Assembly (NCBI GenBank): GCA_003285105.1
Contig: CP030158.1
Coordinates: forward strand, 4,326,449 to 4,390,448
Reading direction: 5' to 3'
DNA: 64,000 nt
DNA from: Roseithermus sacchariphilus
Lineage (GTDB): Bacteria; Bacteroidota; Rhodothermia; Rhodothermales; MEBIC09517
The notes under the pieces are model-generated. The model saw only the letters and a program-made list of their open reading frames with translations, did no database searches and was not told the origin of the DNA. Shown in pieces: positions 12,925 to 55,675 of this stretch. The stretch's first letter is position 1. Every line of letters starts with the position of its first letter. The position numbers and the translations under genes are program-made.

Positions 12925-13020
12925 GGGAGAAAGGCACGTGCGATGACGAGAGACGCGATGGGGCAGGCTTCGCCCCTAGACCCATGGCGACAAGCACCGT
13001 GCAATAAGGACATCCTCCCG

Positions 13021-13087
13021 CCAGCTTTCAGCGATCAGCCGTCAGCTTTCAGCCAGCAGCCAGCAGCCAGCAGCTTTCAGCCGTCAG
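13021..13087 (+). repeat. Heptanucleotide repeat array, AGCC family
   Basis: This is a run of degenerate 7-bp units of the form NNNCAGC (TTTCAGC, GATCAGC, CGTCAGC, TTTCAGC, then CAGCAGC three times, TTTCAGC, CGTCAGC). The four core bases keep strict heptad phase while the other three vary. Related arrays occur at 13240, 31058, 40633 and 48662. Confidence 0.85.
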
Positions 13088-13123
13088 CGGCCCGGGGCCC
13101 GGATCCGAAGTCGCAACCCAGAT

Positions 13124-13230: not shown

Positions 13231-13239
13231 CTGTGCGGC

Positions 13240-13338
13240 CGTCAGCTATCAGCCGTCAGCCTTCAGCCTTCAGCCGTCAGCCTTCAGCTTTCAGCCTTCA
13301 GCTTTCAGCCCACAGCCAGAAGCCAGCAGCCCGCAGCC
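13240..13338 (+). repeat. Heptanucleotide repeat array, AGCC family
   Basis: This is the second arm of the composite, about fourteen 7-bp units of the form NTCAGCY (GTCAGCT, ATCAGCC, GTCAGCC, TTCAGCC and similar), ending in AGAAGCC, AGCAGCC, CGCAGCC. It ends 5 bases before the stop codon of the Ycf48-like gene. Confidence 0.85.
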
Positions 13339-31057: not shown

Positions 31058-31211
31058 AGTAGCCCGCAGCCAGTAGCCCGCAGCCAGTAGCCCGCAGCCA
31101 GTAGCCCGCAGCCCGAAGCCAGCAGCCAGCAGCCAGCAGCCAGTAGCCCGCAGCCCGAAGCCAGCAGCCAGTAGCCCGCAGCCCGAAGCCAGCAGCCAGT
31201 AGCCCGCAGCA
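31058..31211 (+). repeat. Heptanucleotide repeat array, AGCC family (longest)
   Basis: About 21 consecutive 7-bp units of the form AGCCNNN: AGCCCGC and AGCCAGT alternate, then AGCCCGA, AGCCAGC and so on. Higher-order blocks such as AGCCCGC-AGCCCGA-AGCCAGC recur, which indicates block duplication by slippage. It ends about 30 bases before the metal-operator palindrome. Confidence 0.9.
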
Positions 31212-48582: not shown

Positions 48583-48652
48583 TCGCCGCAATACCGCCCT
48601 CGCCCGGGGACTACCCCTCCGTCGCTCCGCGACACCGCCTCTTTGCAAGGGG
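48583..48652 (-). repeat. Dispersed palindromic element, copy 2
   Basis: The reverse complement reads CCCCTTGCAAAG, then GGTGTCGCGGAGCGACGGAG, GGGTAGTCCCCGGGCG and GGGCGGTATTGCGGC. It aligns with 13130-13198 with only scattered changes. As at 13124, a heptanucleotide array follows directly. Confidence 0.75.
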
Positions 48653-48661
48653 CTGCTCGCT

Positions 48662-48746
48662 GCCGGCTGACGGCTGCTGGCTGACGGCTGACGGCTGCTG
48701 GCTGACGGCTGACGGCTGCTGGCTGACGGCTGACGGCTGACGGCTG
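48662..48746 (-). repeat. Heptanucleotide repeat array, AGCC family (reverse)
   Basis: About twelve units of GGCTGAC and GGCTGCT follow one another, mostly as the 21-bp block GGCTGAC-GGCTGCT-GGCTGAC. On the minus strand these are AGCC-core heptamers. The near-perfect 21-bp period shows recent block amplification. Confidence 0.9.
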
Positions 48747-48888
48747 ACCGCCTTGTGAGGAGATGACACCGTTTCTACCTCTCAAACTTTTGGCGAGCCC
48801 CGATGTCCCTTTCTGGAGCGAAAATGCACGTGATAGGAAAAGGCCCGAGCGCCCGTCCGCTTTTTCCTTCCACGCTGTCATTCCCGCG

Positions 48889-51800
48889 ATGTCCCGTTTA
48901 TTCGCCTCTGCCGGCTCTCTGCTACCCGTTTTCCGGTCTCTGACCGCGCTCCTCGTCGCCCTGCTGCCGGTCCTGGCCGCCCGGGCCGACACGATCACCT
49001 GGACCGGCAGCGGCGACGGCACCTCCTGGAACGATCCCGCCAACTGGAGCGGGAACGCCGTGCCCGGTGCCGAGGATGATGTGCTGATCACCAACGACGG
49101 CACCTACACCGTCGTTCTGAACGTCCACGCTACCATCAACAGCCTCACGCTGGGCGGCGAGAGCGGAACGCAGACGCTCCGCACAGGGTCGGCCACCCTC
49201 ACCATGAACGCCGCCAGCACGATCGGCGCCAGCGGCGCCGTGGAGTGGACGGGCGGCACCATCGAAGGCGGACCGCTGACGAACGAGGGCCTGATGACGC
49301 TGACCGGGACCGCGACCAGCATGACCCTCGGCGCCGGCACCCTCGTCAACACCGGCACCCTCCGCTGGATCAGCGGCAACCTCTACCTCGCCACCGGCGC
49401 CACGCTCGACAACCGCGCCACCGTCGACCTCGCCGCCGACGTCGACCTGCGCCGCTCCGGCAACGCCCCGCAGACCCTCCGCAACACCGGCACGCTCGTC
49501 AAGTCCGCCGGCGCCGCCGAGGGCGAGAACTCCTTCCTCGACGTGCCCCTCGTCAACGACGGCGGCACCATCCAGGTCGCCCAGGGCACACTCCACCTCA
49601 CCCAGGGCGGCACCTACACCGCCGGCACCTACACCGCCGCCGAGGGCGCCGTGCTCGCCTTCAACAGCGGCACCCACACCATCAGCGGCACCCTCTCCGG
49701 CACCCCCGCCGGCACCGTCGCCTTCCGGGGCACCACGCTCGCCGCCGGGGCCGACGGCGCCACACTCGCCTTCGACGGCACCGGCTTCGAATGGCAGGGC
49801 CACACCCTCACCGCCGCCTCGACGCAACCGCTCACCAACTCCGGCCTGATGACGCTGACCGGGACCGCGACCAGCATGACCCTCGGCGCCGCCACCCTCG
49901 TCAACACCGGCACCCTCCGCTGGGTCAGCGGCAACCTCTACTTCGCCACCAACGCCACGCTCGACAACCGCGCCACCGTCGACCTCGCCGCCGACGTCGA
50001 CCTGCGCCGCTCCGGCAACGCCCCGCAGACCCTCATCAACTCCGGCACGCTCGTCAAGTCCGCCGGCGCCGCCGAGGGCGACAACTCCTTCCTCGACGTG
50101 CCCCTCGTCAACGACGGCGGCACCATCCAGGTCGCCCAGGGCACACTCCACCTCACCCAGGGCGGCACCTACACCGCCGGCACCTACACCGCCGCCGAGG
50201 GCGCCGTGCTCGCCTTCAACAGCGGCACCCACACCATCAGCGGCACCCTCTCCGGCACCCCCGCCGGCACCGTCGCCTTCCGGGGCACCACGCTCGCCGC
50301 CGGGGCCGACGGCGCCACGCTCGCCTTCGGCGGCACCGGCTTCGAATGGCAGGGCCACACCCTCACCGCCGCCTCGGCACAGCCGCTCACCAACTCCGGC
50401 CTGATGACGCTGACCGGGACCGCGACCAGCATGACCCTCGGCGCCGCCACCCTCGTCAACACCGGCACCCTCCGCTGGGTCAGCGGCAACCTCTACCTCG
50501 CCACCAACGCCACGCTCGACAACCGCGCCACCGTCGACCTCTCCGCCGACGTCGACCTGCGCCGCTCCGGCAACGCCCCGCAGACCCTCATCAACTCCGG
50601 CACGCTCGTCAAGTCCGCCGGCGCCGCCGAGGGCGAGAACTCCTTCCTCGACGTGCCCCTCGTCAACGACGGCGGCACCATCCAGGTCGCCCAGGGCACA
50701 CTCCACCTCACCCAGGGCGGCACCTACACCGCCGGCACCTACACCGCCGCCGAGGGCGCCGTGCTCGCCTTCAACAGCGGCACCCACACCATCAGCGGCA
50801 CCCTCTCCGGCACCCCCGCCGGCACCGTCGCCTTCCGGGGCACCACGCTCGCCGCCGGGGCCGACGGCGCCACGCTCGCCTTCGGCGGCACCGGCTTCGA
50901 ATGGCAGGGCCATACCCTCACCGCCGCCTCGGCACAGCCCCTCACCAACACCGGCCTGATGACGCTGACCGGGACCGCGACCAGCATGACCCTCGGCGCC
51001 GCCACCCTCGTCAACACCGGCACCCTCCGCTGGATCAGCGGCAACCTCTACCTCGCCACCAACGCCACGCTCGACAACCGCGCCACCGTCGACCTCTCCG
51101 CCGACGTCGACCTGCGCCGCTCCGGCAACGCCCCGCAGACCCTCATCAACTCCGGCACGCTCGTCAAGTCCGCCAGCGCCGCCGAGGGCGAGAACTCCTT
51201 CCTCGACGTGCCCCTCGTCAACGACGGCGGCACCATCCGCGTCGAGGCCGGCATGCTCCACCTCACCGAGGGCGGCACTTACACCGATGGCCGCTACGAG
51301 ACGGCGGCCGGAACGACCCTCCTGTTCAACAGCGGCACCCACACCTTCTCCGGCCGCTTTGAGGAAGAGATCACCGGCCACTTTCAGCTTGCCGGCAACA
51401 GCACCCTGGCCATCGATGCGGGCGGGGCCACGTTCGACTTCACGGGGAACGGGCTCGAATGGCTGTCCGGCACCATCGGAGGGGACGGCACGCTCCGCAA
51501 CCTCGGGCAGATCACGCTCACCTCTACCGCCGGCAAAACCCTCCGCGTGGCCTCGCTGCGCAACGAGGGTACGGTCGCCGTCACCGAAGGCTTCCTGACG
51601 CTGGACGGCACGACCCTCCAGAACGACGCCACGATGACCTGGGCCGGCAGCGGCCTCGCCATCCGTCAGAGCACGGTGACCAACGCCGGCACGCTGACCT
51701 GGCAGGCCGGAAACGTCAGCCTTACCGAGAGCACCCTGCGCAACGGCGGCACCCTCGACCTGCAGGGGGACCTCTCGCTCAGCGGCACCCCTGCCGGCAC

Positions 51801-53682
51801 CGACACCTTCGCCGTCGCCAACCTGACCGGCGGCCTGTTCCGCAAGAGCGCGGGCGAGAACACGGCGACGTTCAACGTCCCGGTTCAGAACCAGGCAGGC
51901 GCCACGCTGAGAGCGGTCTCTGGAACATGGCGTTTCACGAACCTCGTGGATCACCGGCCCGGAGCCATCATACAGGGAGACGCGGCGTTCGACTTCGCGA
52001 CGGCTGCCCTCACCCACGACGGCATCGTCCAGCCCGGCACCTCCCCCGGGCGGCTTACCTACGTCGGCACGTTTGCCCCGTCCTCGCCGGACGCCACGCT
52101 GCACATCGAACTGGGCGGACCCACCCCCGGGGAGGACTACGACGTCCTGACCGTCGCGCAAACCGCCTACCGCGTCGGCTTTCGCTACCTCGGCGGGGAT
52201 GCGCTCCTCGGCGGCACGCTGGATGTGCAGCTGCTCGACGACTTCACCCCGCAGGCCGAGGACTCGTTCACCGTGCTCATCGCCCCGGAAGGCATCGCCG
52301 GCGGCTTCGCGGCCCGCACCGGCCTCGTCCGGGGCGATCTTGCGCTCTACCCCACCCTCGGCGACACCACCGTCACCCTGACGGCCGTCCAGGGCGTGCC
52401 CACCATCACCGGTGCCATCGCCGCCGAACCCGCCCGCGTCGTGGGCGATGCCCTGCGGACGGTCCAGGTGACCGGCACCGGCTTCGGTCCGGACGTGCAC
52501 GTGCGGCTGGTCTGCACCGACTGCCAGGGCGCCGAAGGCGACGTGCCCGGCCTCGTCGGCACCATCACGCCGACGGCGATGACCGTGGCGTTCGACCTGC
52601 GTGAAGGGACGCGGCTGGGCCTCTACGACCTCGTCGTGACCGACCCACGCGGCGGCGAGGCCCGGACGCCGATGACGGTGGAGCCGGCGCCGCTCCAGGC
52701 CACCGTCTCCACCCTGCGGAGCCTGGCCTCCGAAGCCGACGGAGAACCCGGACTGATCCTCATCCGCCTGAATCACCCGACCTTCCAGCCGATCGCGCTC
52801 TCCTACACCCTCGGAGGCACCGCCACGCCGTTTGCCGATTATTCCCTGGACGTGCTGGGAGGCACCCTGTTGCTGCCTGCCGGAACGGACTCGTTCGTCG
52901 TGGCCGTCTTCCCCGTGAGCGACGACGTGGCCGAAGACGAGGAATCCATCACCTTCGCCGTATCCGGCGAGGCCCTGGCCTCCTCCGTCGGAACCGCCGT
53001 CGTCCGTATCGAGGACGGCCCACCCACTCACGCCTTCGCGGTGTACGCCTCCCGGCCCCGCGTAGCCGGCACCCTCGGCACGATGAGCGTGACCATCGGC
53101 GGGCAAGGATTCACCGAGGACGCTACAGTCCGCCTGTCCGTGAACGGCGGAGACGGCCTGGCTCCCCTCGGAAGCCGGGTGGAGGCCGGAGGAACACGCT
53201 TGAGGGCCGTCTTTGACGTGAGCGGCGTGCCTCCCGGCGTGCGGGACCTCGTGATCGTCAATGGCGACGGGGCCACGGCCACACTCCCCGGCGCGCTGAC
53301 GCTGGAAACCCCGGTCTTCCCCGAGGTCTTCGTCCAGGTCACCGCCCCACCCCGTGTGCCGCGAACGCGCGAGCGCACCTACACGGTGATCGTGCACAAC
53401 CGCGGCAATGTCGATGTCACCGGGTCCCCGGCCATCGCCGGGCTGCCTCTCGACGCCGAGTGGTCCGTCGATCCCTCGCTCTACCGTCCCCCCGCCGGCC
53501 AGGCGCTCACCTGGCACGACCTGAAGGCCCTCTACCCCGCTGAGGAAGGCGACGAAACGCAGGTGATCATGTTGCCGCGCCTCATCCTCGGCCCCGGCGA
53601 GATCCGCCGCATCGACGTGCACGCCAGCATCCCGACACCACAGACCCTCCGCCTCATCGGTGCCTGGGTCTACGACCGCTGA
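48889..53682 (+). CDS. Large secreted repeat protein with Calx-beta-like domain
   Basis: This 1597-residue protein has a signal peptide (LTALLVALLPVLAARA). The N-terminal part is a parallel-beta-helix-like repeat region rich in LxNxGTL and ATLDNRATVDL. It contains four copies of a 185-residue unit (555 bp), three nearly identical. Residues about 870-1110 hold diverged copies. The C-terminal third has an IPT-like module, a Calx-beta-like domain (EDEESITFAVSGEAL) and two CARDB-like modules, ending TLRLIGAWVYDR. There is no T9SS tail. The next gene starts 49 bases later and carries the DUF7619 and T9SS modules that the giant protein at 4726 has in one chain. Probably a surface adhesin. Start at 48889 (MSRLFASAGS) begins the signal peptide. 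Confidence 0.85.
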   Translation: MSRLFASAGSLLPVFRSLTALLVALLPVLAARADTITWTGSGDGTSWNDPANWSGNAVPGAEDDVLITNDGTYTVVLNVHATINSLTLGGESGTQTLRTGSATLTMNAASTIGASGAVEWTGGTIEGGPLTNEGLMTLTGTATSMTLGAGTLVNTGTLRWISGNLYLATGATLDNRATVDLAADVDLRRSGNAPQTLRNTGTLVKSAGAAEGENSFLDVPLVNDGGTIQVAQGTLHLTQGGTYTAGTYTAAEGAVLAFNSGTHTISGTLSGTPAGTVAFRGTTLAAGADGATLAFDGTGFEWQGHTLTAASTQPLTNSGLMTLTGTATSMTLGAATLVNTGTLRWVSGNLYFATNATLDNRATVDLAADVDLRRSGNAPQTLINSGTLVKSAGAAEGDNSFLDVPLVNDGGTIQVAQGTLHLTQGGTYTAGTYTAAEGAVLAFNSGTHTISGTLSGTPAGTVAFRGTTLAAGADGATLAFGGTGFEWQGHTLTAASAQPLTNSGLMTLTGTATSMTLGAATLVNTGTLRWVSGNLYLATNATLDNRATVDLSADVDLRRSGNAPQTLINSGTLVKSAGAAEGENSFLDVPLVNDGGTIQVAQGTLHLTQGGTYTAGTYTAAEGAVLAFNSGTHTISGTLSGTPAGTVAFRGTTLAAGADGATLAFGGTGFEWQGHTLTAASAQPLTNTGLMTLTGTATSMTLGAATLVNTGTLRWISGNLYLATNATLDNRATVDLSADVDLRRSGNAPQTLINSGTLVKSASAAEGENSFLDVPLVNDGGTIRVEAGMLHLTEGGTYTDGRYETAAGTTLLFNSGTHTFSGRFEEEITGHFQLAGNSTLAIDAGGATFDFTGNGLEWLSGTIGGDGTLRNLGQITLTSTAGKTLRVASLRNEGTVAVTEGFLTLDGTTLQNDATMTWAGSGLAIRQSTVTNAGTLTWQAGNVSLTESTLRNGGTLDLQGDLSLSGTPAGTDTFAVANLTGGLFRKSAGENTATFNVPVQNQAGATLRAVSGTWRFTNLVDHRPGAIIQGDAAFDFATAALTHDGIVQPGTSPGRLTYVGTFAPSSPDATLHIELGGPTPGEDYDVLTVAQTAYRVGFRYLGGDALLGGTLDVQLLDDFTPQAEDSFTVLIAPEGIAGGFAARTGLVRGDLALYPTLGDTTVTLTAVQGVPTITGAIAAEPARVVGDALRTVQVTGTGFGPDVHVRLVCTDCQGAEGDVPGLVGTITPTAMTVAFDLREGTRLGLYDLVVTDPRGGEARTPMTVEPAPLQATVSTLRSLASEADGEPGLILIRLNHPTFQPIALSYTLGGTATPFADYSLDVLGGTLLLPAGTDSFVVAVFPVSDDVAEDEESITFAVSGEALASSVGTAVVRIEDGPPTHAFAVYASRPRVAGTLGTMSVTIGGQGFTEDATVRLSVNGGDGLAPLGSRVEAGGTRLRAVFDVSGVPPGVRDLVIVNGDGATATLPGALTLETPVFPEVFVQVTAPPRVPRTRERTYTVIVHNRGNVDVTGSPAIAGLPLDAEWSVDPSLYRPPAGQALTWHDLKALYPAEEGDETQVIMLPRLILGPGEIRRIDVHASIPTPQTLRLIGAWVYDR
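49291..51240 (+). repeat. 555-bp coding tandem repeat, about 3.5 copies
   Basis: The same sequence begins at 49291, 49846, 50401 and 50956 (CTGATGACGCTGACCGGGAC), an exact 555-bp period. Copies differ at only a handful of codons (Ile/Val in RWISGN, Gly/Asn in ATGATL, Ala/Ser in VDLAAD). The fourth copy diverges after about 51235. Synonymous sites are also conserved, so the copies are kept alike by recent duplication or gene conversion. Confidence 0.95.
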
Positions 53683-53731: not shown

Positions 53732-55675
53732 ATGCGCTACCGTTCTGCCGTTCCGCCCGTGCACCGCGTGCTCTCGCTCCTGACCTGCGTGCTGTTCCTC
53801 GCCGTCTCCACCACCCGAGCACAGAACACCACCGTCGTCGTGGTCGATGGGGAAAAAAAGCTCCGGCACGAGAGCTTCTTCGACGGCGTCGAGTTGGAAA
53901 CGTACGAAAGCTACTTCGGCAACGATGCGGACGTGATGAGCGACGTCCTCGACGTAGCCATCGAGCGCTCCCCCCACGAGCGCTTCCAGTGGCACAAAAA
54001 GATTACGGACGGCCTGGACAACGCCTGCGAGGCCGCCGCGGAGAACATGTACGAGGAAGTCACCGGCCGGGGCACGTTGCCGGAGGGCTACGACATCCGC
54101 CAGGTGGGGACGCTGGGCACGCTGACCAATGTCGAAAACTACTTCTTCGCCTCCGGCGAGGACCTGATCAAATGGGGCTACACGGGAGATGCCTACGATC
54201 CACTGGCTCCCCCGTCTTACGCCCACAGCCTGAACGTCGTCAAAACCCCCGACGGGGACTATTTCCTCGTGGACAACTGGCAGGGCGGCATCAAGACGCG
54301 CCGGGTGTTTCCCATCGACGCCGACGCAACGTTTTTCTCGGAAAACCCGGATGAGACGGACGTTCGCAATGCCACCCATCGCCTGTCCAACCTGAATAAG
54401 CGGGGCCGTTCGTGGGATATGACCGAAGAAGAATACGAGGCTCAGTTCGACGGCCCGCTGCGTGACTACAGCAAGGAGGTCGTCAAGGACGACCCGCCGC
54501 GCTCCAGCGAGCAGGTCGAGGTGGAGGTGCTCACGTCGGCCGACCCCAACGACAAGCTGGGGCTGCTGGGCGTCGGCGCGGAGCGGTTCATCACGCCCCA
54601 CCAGCCGCTGCCCTACCTGATCCGGTTCGAGAACATGCCGGATGCCTCTGCGCCGGCGCAGGAAGTGCTCGTCCGGGATACCCTCGACGCCGACGTGTTC
54701 GACCTCGCGACGTTCGAACTGGGCGAGATCCGCTTCGGAGAGCGGCGGGTTCCCGTGCCCCCCGGCCGCCGCGCCTTCTCCACGCGCGTACCGCTCGACG
54801 ACCGCTTCGAAGTGCTCATCACCGCCGGCCTGGCCGAGGCCACCGGCATCGTGACGTGGCGGTTCACCACGATCGACCGCGAAACCGGCGACCTCCCCTT
54901 CGACCCGCTCGACGGGTTCCTCCCACCCAACCAGACGGCCCCCGAGGGCGAAGGCAGCGTCGCCTTCACGATCCACCTCCTCCCCGATATGCCGAGCGGT
55001 ACGGTGATTCGCAACCAGGCACGCATCATCTTCGACCTGAACGAGCCGATCGACACCCCCGTCTGGCGCAATGTCATCGACACGCAGGCGCCCACGAGCG
55101 CCGTCTCCAGCGTGTCGCAAAACACGCGCAGCGACAGCGTCCTGACGATCCGCTGGGGCGGCTCCGACCCGGAAGGCGCCGGCATCCAGTCCTACGACGT
55201 CTATCTGTCCATGGACGGCGGTCCGTTCAACCGATGGCTCCGCTTTACGGACGAGACGCAAGCGACCCTCCTGGCCGAAAACGGGCGTACGTACGCCTTC
55301 TACAGCATCGCACAGGACCGGGCCGGGAACGTGGAGCCGCCCAAAACCGCCGCCGATGCCAGCACCACGGTCGTCGTCTCCAACGAGGACGGACCGGCGG
55401 ACGAGGTGCCGGCGACCTACGCGCTCTGGCAGAACTACCCGAACCCGTTCAACCCGTCGACCACCCTCGCCTTCGACCTGCCCGAACCGACCCACGTGCG
55501 CCTGACCATCTATGACGTGCTCGGCCGCCGGGTGGCGTTGCTCATGGACGAGGAGCGCCCCGCCGGCCGCTTTCAGGTGGACTGGGACGCCTCGCGCCTC
55601 CCGAGCGGGACGTACCTCTACCGCCTCGAAACGGCCGGCTTCACGGCCACCCGCACGCTGACGCTGGTGAAATAG
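53732..55675 (+). CDS. Secreted DUF7619-like protein with T9SS sorting domain
   Basis: This 647-residue protein has its own signal peptide (LLTCVLFLAVSTTRAQ). Residues about 35-270 are unassigned. The rest parallels the end of the giant protein at 4726. It has a DUF7619-like domain opening TSADPNDKLGLLGVGAERF with LPYLIRFEN and RIIFDLNEPIDTP, then a fibronectin-like segment (TIRWGGSDPEGAGIQSYDVYLS). A type A T9SS domain closes it (QNYPNPFNPSTTLAFDLPEP, IYDVLGRRVALLMDE, PSGTYLYRLE). It lies 49 bases after the large repeat protein and is probably its operon partner, anchoring or completing it at the surface. It has no dockerin loops, unlike the giant protein. Confidence 0.85.
   Translation: MRYRSAVPPVHRVLSLLTCVLFLAVSTTRAQNTTVVVVDGEKKLRHESFFDGVELETYESYFGNDADVMSDVLDVAIERSPHERFQWHKKITDGLDNACEAAAENMYEEVTGRGTLPEGYDIRQVGTLGTLTNVENYFFASGEDLIKWGYTGDAYDPLAPPSYAHSLNVVKTPDGDYFLVDNWQGGIKTRRVFPIDADATFFSENPDETDVRNATHRLSNLNKRGRSWDMTEEEYEAQFDGPLRDYSKEVVKDDPPRSSEQVEVEVLTSADPNDKLGLLGVGAERFITPHQPLPYLIRFENMPDASAPAQEVLVRDTLDADVFDLATFELGEIRFGERRVPVPPGRRAFSTRVPLDDRFEVLITAGLAEATGIVTWRFTTIDRETGDLPFDPLDGFLPPNQTAPEGEGSVAFTIHLLPDMPSGTVIRNQARIIFDLNEPIDTPVWRNVIDTQAPTSAVSSVSQNTRSDSVLTIRWGGSDPEGAGIQSYDVYLSMDGGPFNRWLRFTDETQATLLAENGRTYAFYSIAQDRAGNVEPPKTAADASTTVVVSNEDGPADEVPATYALWQNYPNPFNPSTTLAFDLPEPTHVRLTIYDVLGRRVALLMDEERPAGRFQVDWDASRLPSGTYLYRLETAGFTATRTLTLVK

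Follow-up and report, generated by a model that had tools for sequence, protein, structure and literature searches.

A gene in Roseithermus sacchariphilus probably encodes an exported, Periscope-like beta-helical rod whose length is set by recombination among modules of about 180 residues. The gene lies within a 64,000-nucleotide stretch of contig CP030158.1 (positions 4,326,449 to 4,390,448), referred to here as the window. Its repeat-protein ORF is 1639 aa as listed, with the ATG at 48889 being the more likely start, which gives a protein of 1597 aa. The N-terminus of the protein resembles a Sec-type signal peptide when judged by eye. The features of the repeat gene and its surroundings, in window coordinates, are as follows.

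48651..48748, no strand: GGCTGNN heptanucleotide tract (TRF), spacer between divergent genes
48763..53682, + strand: repeat-protein ORF, 1639 aa as listed
48988..49287, + strand: N-terminal cap with W-NDPANW motif; sub-threshold Amnionless match, 15.9 bits against a cut-off of 30.4
49288..49842, + strand: repeat unit 1, 185 aa (lag-555 identity, unit profile)
49843..50397, + strand: repeat unit 2, 185 aa (lag-555 identity, unit profile)
50398..50952, + strand: repeat unit 3, 185 aa (lag-555 identity, unit profile)
50953..51238, + strand: unit 4, near-identical first half (lag-555 identity)
51239..51492, + strand: unit 4, diverged second half, assigned to the same module by the profile
51493..52119, + strand: diverged terminal unit, 51% identical to a unit of G027 and at most 31% to its own neighbours
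52120..53679, + strand: C-terminal region; from 52207, 41-53% identity in G026, G024, and G027
53732..55675, + strand: downstream partner gene, 647 aa, ATG at 53732, signal-peptide-like start, DUF7619, type IX sorting tail

The tandem tract spans 49288-51238 (1,951 bp) within one ORF and comprises 3.5 copies of a unit that is exactly 555 bp long. Identity at a lag of 555 covers this whole interval, and the first mismatches flanking it are at 49287 and 51239. Copies start at positions 49288, 49843, and 50398, and a fourth copy from 50953 is represented by its first 286 bp only. The initial annotation had placed an exact 555-bp period at 49291-51240, which the measured tract confirms to within 3 bp. 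TRF was run with a longest period of 500, and the array is consequently absent from its listing. The best self-lag identity over 300 bp is 0.997; when the codons of the ORF were shuffled 100 times, it never exceeded 0.513. Copies match exactly over stretches of up to 275 bp when one unit apart (lag 555) and up to 277 bp when two units apart (lag 1110).

The three full copies contain no indels relative to one another, and the reading frame is intact. Per 555 positions, units 1 and 2 differ at 14, units 1 and 3 at 16, and units 2 and 3 at 6, with a protein identity of 95-98%. Among these units pS is 0.013-0.033 and pN is 0.010-0.027, so that the earlier description of copies differing at a few codons with synonymous sites conserved holds. 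The first 282 bp of unit 4 show 2-8 non-synonymous and 0 synonymous changes against units 1 to 3. The few changes among copies are scattered and not clustered at one spot. Because hardly any change has occurred at either synonymous or non-synonymous sites, the likeness of units 1 to 3 is, on these counts, one of recency or homogenisation and not of codon constraint. The window copies appear to show no sign yet of purifying selection between them.

Upstream, the GGCTGNN tract at 48651..48748 separates an ABC-transporter gene (- strand) from the divergent repeat gene (+ strand). GGCTGNN tracts are found in the window at 13018-13088, 13238-13310, 31058-31210, and 48651-48748. The window genome has 186 occurrences of the four-fold pattern and 0 of the reversed one. 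The four-fold pattern is present in 4 of 113 genomes of the order, the window genome included, with at most 10 in any other. The tracts are, judging from these counts, a genome-specific expansion.

Scans of the whole repeat protein against Pfam and NCBIfam gave weak or sub-threshold matches only, such as DUF6287 (15.6 bits) and fusolisin (27.8 bits against a cut-off of 999). Pfam identified no adhesive or tip domain in the ORF, and no autotransporter or two-partner secretion domain at E ≤ 0.1. The window copy of the C-terminal region has no Pfam match. TIG is weakly matched by one of its four homologs, and by eye the region gives the impression of IPT/TIG- and Calx-beta-like domains. The repeat module itself has no Pfam family; the window unit matched none, and other members had scattered weak matches only.

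The unit of about 180 residues is a predicted beta-helix module. A model of two units (370 aa, built from five alignment rows) is all beta, with a pLDDT of 88.8 and a pTM of 0.86. In its predicted beta-helix fold, the two-unit model resembles right-handed beta-helix proteins. The best rows from VIA-align are beta-helix proteins, and include the autotransporter UpaB (Z 17.4, 4.7 Å over 317 residues), Fap2 (Z 15.8, 4.5 Å over 347 residues), and Antigen 43 (Z 14.5, 3.4 Å over 246 residues), although Z scores can be inflated for repeat proteins. Foldseek returned no match to the two-unit model at E ≤ 0.001. A single-sequence model of 1200 residues (pLDDT 46.0, pTM 0.31) was too poor to show a continuous rod. 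Coaxial stacking of the modules over the whole protein is for these two reasons inferred only. The predicted two-unit model has its fold class in common with autotransporter passengers (UpaB, Antigen 43, pertactin, and Fap2). Unlike these, the repeat protein has no Pfam autotransporter domain, and its unit profile gave no match to a solved structure.

Repeats of this kind could instead multiply a ligand-binding site and so raise avidity, with stalk length incidental. Beta-helix proteins do include binders and polysaccharide enzymes, and Pfam located no separate tip domain. This reading is possible but doubtful, since the module has no known binding residues and the few changes among its copies are spread, not gathered.

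The module was next sought among relatives, using one genome per species; the genus and family of the window are represented by the window genome (G000) only. The repeat protein was matched in 29 of 114 genomes of the order (E ≤ 0.001). A profile of the unit matched 8 of a sample of 394 genomes of the phylum at a strict E ≤ 1e-8, six of them from the same order. Ten distant matches in a wider search of the genome collection were mostly to the N-terminal motif region. Within the searches made, the module family appears mostly limited to one bacterial order. After three rounds of growth over the fetched loci, the unit profile counts from 1 to 6 full-length units per protein in this order. The units stand in tandem; G032 and G033, which are congeners, carry five and four respectively. 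Many relatives carry their own DNA-level tandem arrays with periods of 531-579 bp, and in G048 and G036 the repeats are up to 100% identical over 90 bp. Fresh amplification is evident in G000, G048, and G036, which represent several families of the order. The window genome also contains a paralog of 2734 aa (L106, G000:C1:1079000-1096000) with 849/864-bp repeats and a sorting tail in cis.

A tree of 61 units shows that units mostly cluster by their own protein. With 17 protein labels, 20 changes are needed, compared with a mean of 47.6 after shuffling, and 0 of 200 shuffles were as low. Units 1 to 4 of the window form one group (support 100/99). Terminal units instead pair across genomes: the window's last unit, G000_u6, with G027_u1 (100/100), G033_u4 with G032_u5 (100/100), and G036_u6 with G041_u2 (99/77). 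Wherever a protein has three or more full units (11 of 11 cases), its final two neighbours resemble each other least of all its adjacent pairs; these proteins are related, and the cases are not an independent test.

Copies are also mosaic. Among the 210 informative site pairs in units 1 to 5 of G036, 54 fit no single tree. Unit 1 is nearest unit 4 (9 differences) and unit 5 is nearest unit 2 (3 differences), a pattern that may be read as that left after exchange of a three-unit block. The window offers one informative site pair, and it too fits no single tree (1 of 1); a mutation that arose twice could produce the same result. We infer concerted evolution through unequal crossing-over or gene conversion, from which the edge unit would escape.

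Adjacent-copy pS ranges from 0.00-0.06 (internal units of G036, window units 1 to 3) up to 0.71 (G024), and pN lies well below pS where arrays are older (G026, G024, and G032). Array ages thus seem to span fresh to old, with new copies apparently near neutral and old copies apparently kept as protein. Homogenisation is not universal, because G045b and G045c show no grouping of units by protein (all 500 of 500 shuffles were as low), internal units from G032 are intermingled with those from G033, and the units of G038 nest within those of G036.

The likeness of the window copies might merely date one recent triplication, with no turnover continuing today. The divergence among units 1 to 3 is low and near neutral, and the older arrays elsewhere could simply have diverged. 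Such a history is unlikely, since amplification recurs (G000, G048, and G036), copy numbers differ, and copies are mosaic. The initial annotation had proposed that recombination adds or drops 185-residue units; between species, the range of one to six full units, the clustering by own genome, and the G036 mosaics support this. Selection on codons or RNA, in place of recombination, is very improbable as the force keeping copies alike: synonymous sites are almost unchanged and the ORF codons are, by eye, strongly C/G-ended, but pN is close to pS among the copies and synonymous sites in relatives diverge freely, with the highest pS noted above, which contradicts it.

An assembly artefact, with copies lost or invented, is hardly credible. 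Exact repeats of up to 277 bp do exceed short reads, and arrays break contigs in draft relatives. The window genome, however, is one contig of 4,807,988 bp, its copies are distinguishable by their own differences, and other genomes have a like architecture. Collapse of copies, a concern of the initial annotation, is for the first two of these reasons unlikely here. The concern is better placed with drafts. An orthologous array was found in five genomes of genus g24 (G036, G038, G039, G040, and G041). It is intact in G036, with six full units on a 3.26-Mb contig, and in all four drafts (G038, G039, G040, and G041) a contig end falls within the array. In the same genus, G035 has one weaker unit at a contig end and G037 has no unit.

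The genome encodes the machinery of type IX secretion, with a PorU-family match of 998 bits (cut-off 420) and 104 places with a sorting tail. The 1639-aa repeat ORF itself lacks a type IX tail. The gene directly downstream carries one, with TIGR04183 matched at 36.6 bits (cut-off 23). The N-domain of this partner (53822-54526) has a Cys, a His, and an Asp that are invariant in 5 of 5 sequences. Neither Pfam nor the solved structures yielded a relative of this domain at a useful E-value. A guess from the motif would make it a cysteine enzyme.

Twelve unit-bearing proteins, the own-genome paralog among them, end in a sorting tail in cis, as type IX substrates with TIGR04183 do. The window repeat protein differs from such substrates in that its tail is encoded by the next gene. 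Seven unit proteins with a visible end lack the tail, and in six of these the next same-strand ORF has one; in the seventh, G046, the contig stops within the next ORF. The count excludes ORFs truncated at the edge of a contig, a locus, or an N-run (L017, L047 of 402 aa, and two of L045). The tail profile was trained partly on the counted proteins; it agrees with phmmer from the window partner, and with the TIGR04183 matches of that partner and of the own-genome paralog.

Partners are of two kinds. The first, present in G000, G026, G024, G027, and probably G046, has an N-domain with Cys-His-Asp followed by DUF7619 and the tail; in G024 the same gene pair is seen from a C-terminal fragment. The second, present in G036, G041, and G040, is about 150 aa long with a signal-peptide-like start and a tail. 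In L069 (1030-1491), L072, and L074, the repeat gene is immediately followed by one for such a small protein of about 150 aa, composed of the signal-peptide-like start, a short stretch, and the tail. In two G045 proteins the C-terminal module, a DUF7619 part, and the tail are fused in one chain, and this fusion links the repeat gene and the partner of the window. A 4146-aa ORF elsewhere in the window genome (L057, G000:C1:1036000-1052000) shares the C-terminal stretch of the rod, a DUF7619-like part, and the tail, with Asp-rich repeats between the shared parts.

In-frame readthrough from the rod into the tail gene was considered and dropped, the downstream ORFs examined each having, by eye, their own signal-peptide-like start. 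In the available text of the published account, it is by its own tail that a type IX substrate attaches to the translocon (PMC10994853). No description of type IX tails acting in trans, or of this module, was recognised in the literature searched. It is a tentative and rather doubtful proposal that the pair forms a split type IX substrate, in which a giant, tail-less repeat rod is carried or anchored by a co-encoded protein with a signal peptide and tail. On this hypothesis, the partner would export or anchor the rod. The initial annotation had called the repeat protein a surface protein; the signal peptide seen by eye, the beta-helix model, and the type IX tails of relatives and of the next gene support this indirectly, and the absence of a tail of its own counts against it.

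Under the preferred reading, the gene product would be exported as a rod-like beta-helix protein and placed on the cell surface by the type IX system, presumably with help from the neighbouring gene. RecA-type recombination between the tandem DNA copies, as suggested by their pattern, would multiply, delete, and homogenise modules, with unequal crossing-over and gene conversion as the modes of turnover. A change in copy number would then lengthen or shorten the rod and hold its ends at another distance, as in Periscope Proteins. By estimate, each added unit would extend the rod by about 4 nm if it has eight to nine coils.

CdrA of Pseudomonas aeruginosa, one of the two closest likenesses, is secreted by two-partner secretion, a route different from that proposed for the window rod. 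Like the proposed rod, CdrA is described in the available texts as a filamentous surface protein of a Gram-negative bacterium that bears tandem repeats, and variation in repeat number is reported (PMC10903470, PMC8201768). Periscope Proteins (SasG, Rib, and Sgo_0707) are, in the available text of PMC8201768, secreted proteins in which long, highly similar DNA repeats encode folded modules, with a change of length through repeat number as the proposed consequence. The window gene likewise has long, highly identical tandem repeats that, by the protein identity and two-unit pLDDT given above, encode predicted folded modules in a predicted secreted protein. Its modules differ from those so described in being predicted beta-helices of about 180 aa, with no Pfam family and in a type IX context. 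Periscope Proteins and CdrA would be the closest working likeness. Membership of the former is not claimed, because length differences are seen here between species only and no tip domain was found.

With this module, an unclassified family joins the proteins in which recombination may determine length. Its natural arrays of differing age offer material for studying the homogenisation of folded repeats. The pair of genes with a separate tail is the most novel lead and the part worth experiment; if functional, it would imply that addressing of type IX cargo in trans is possible.
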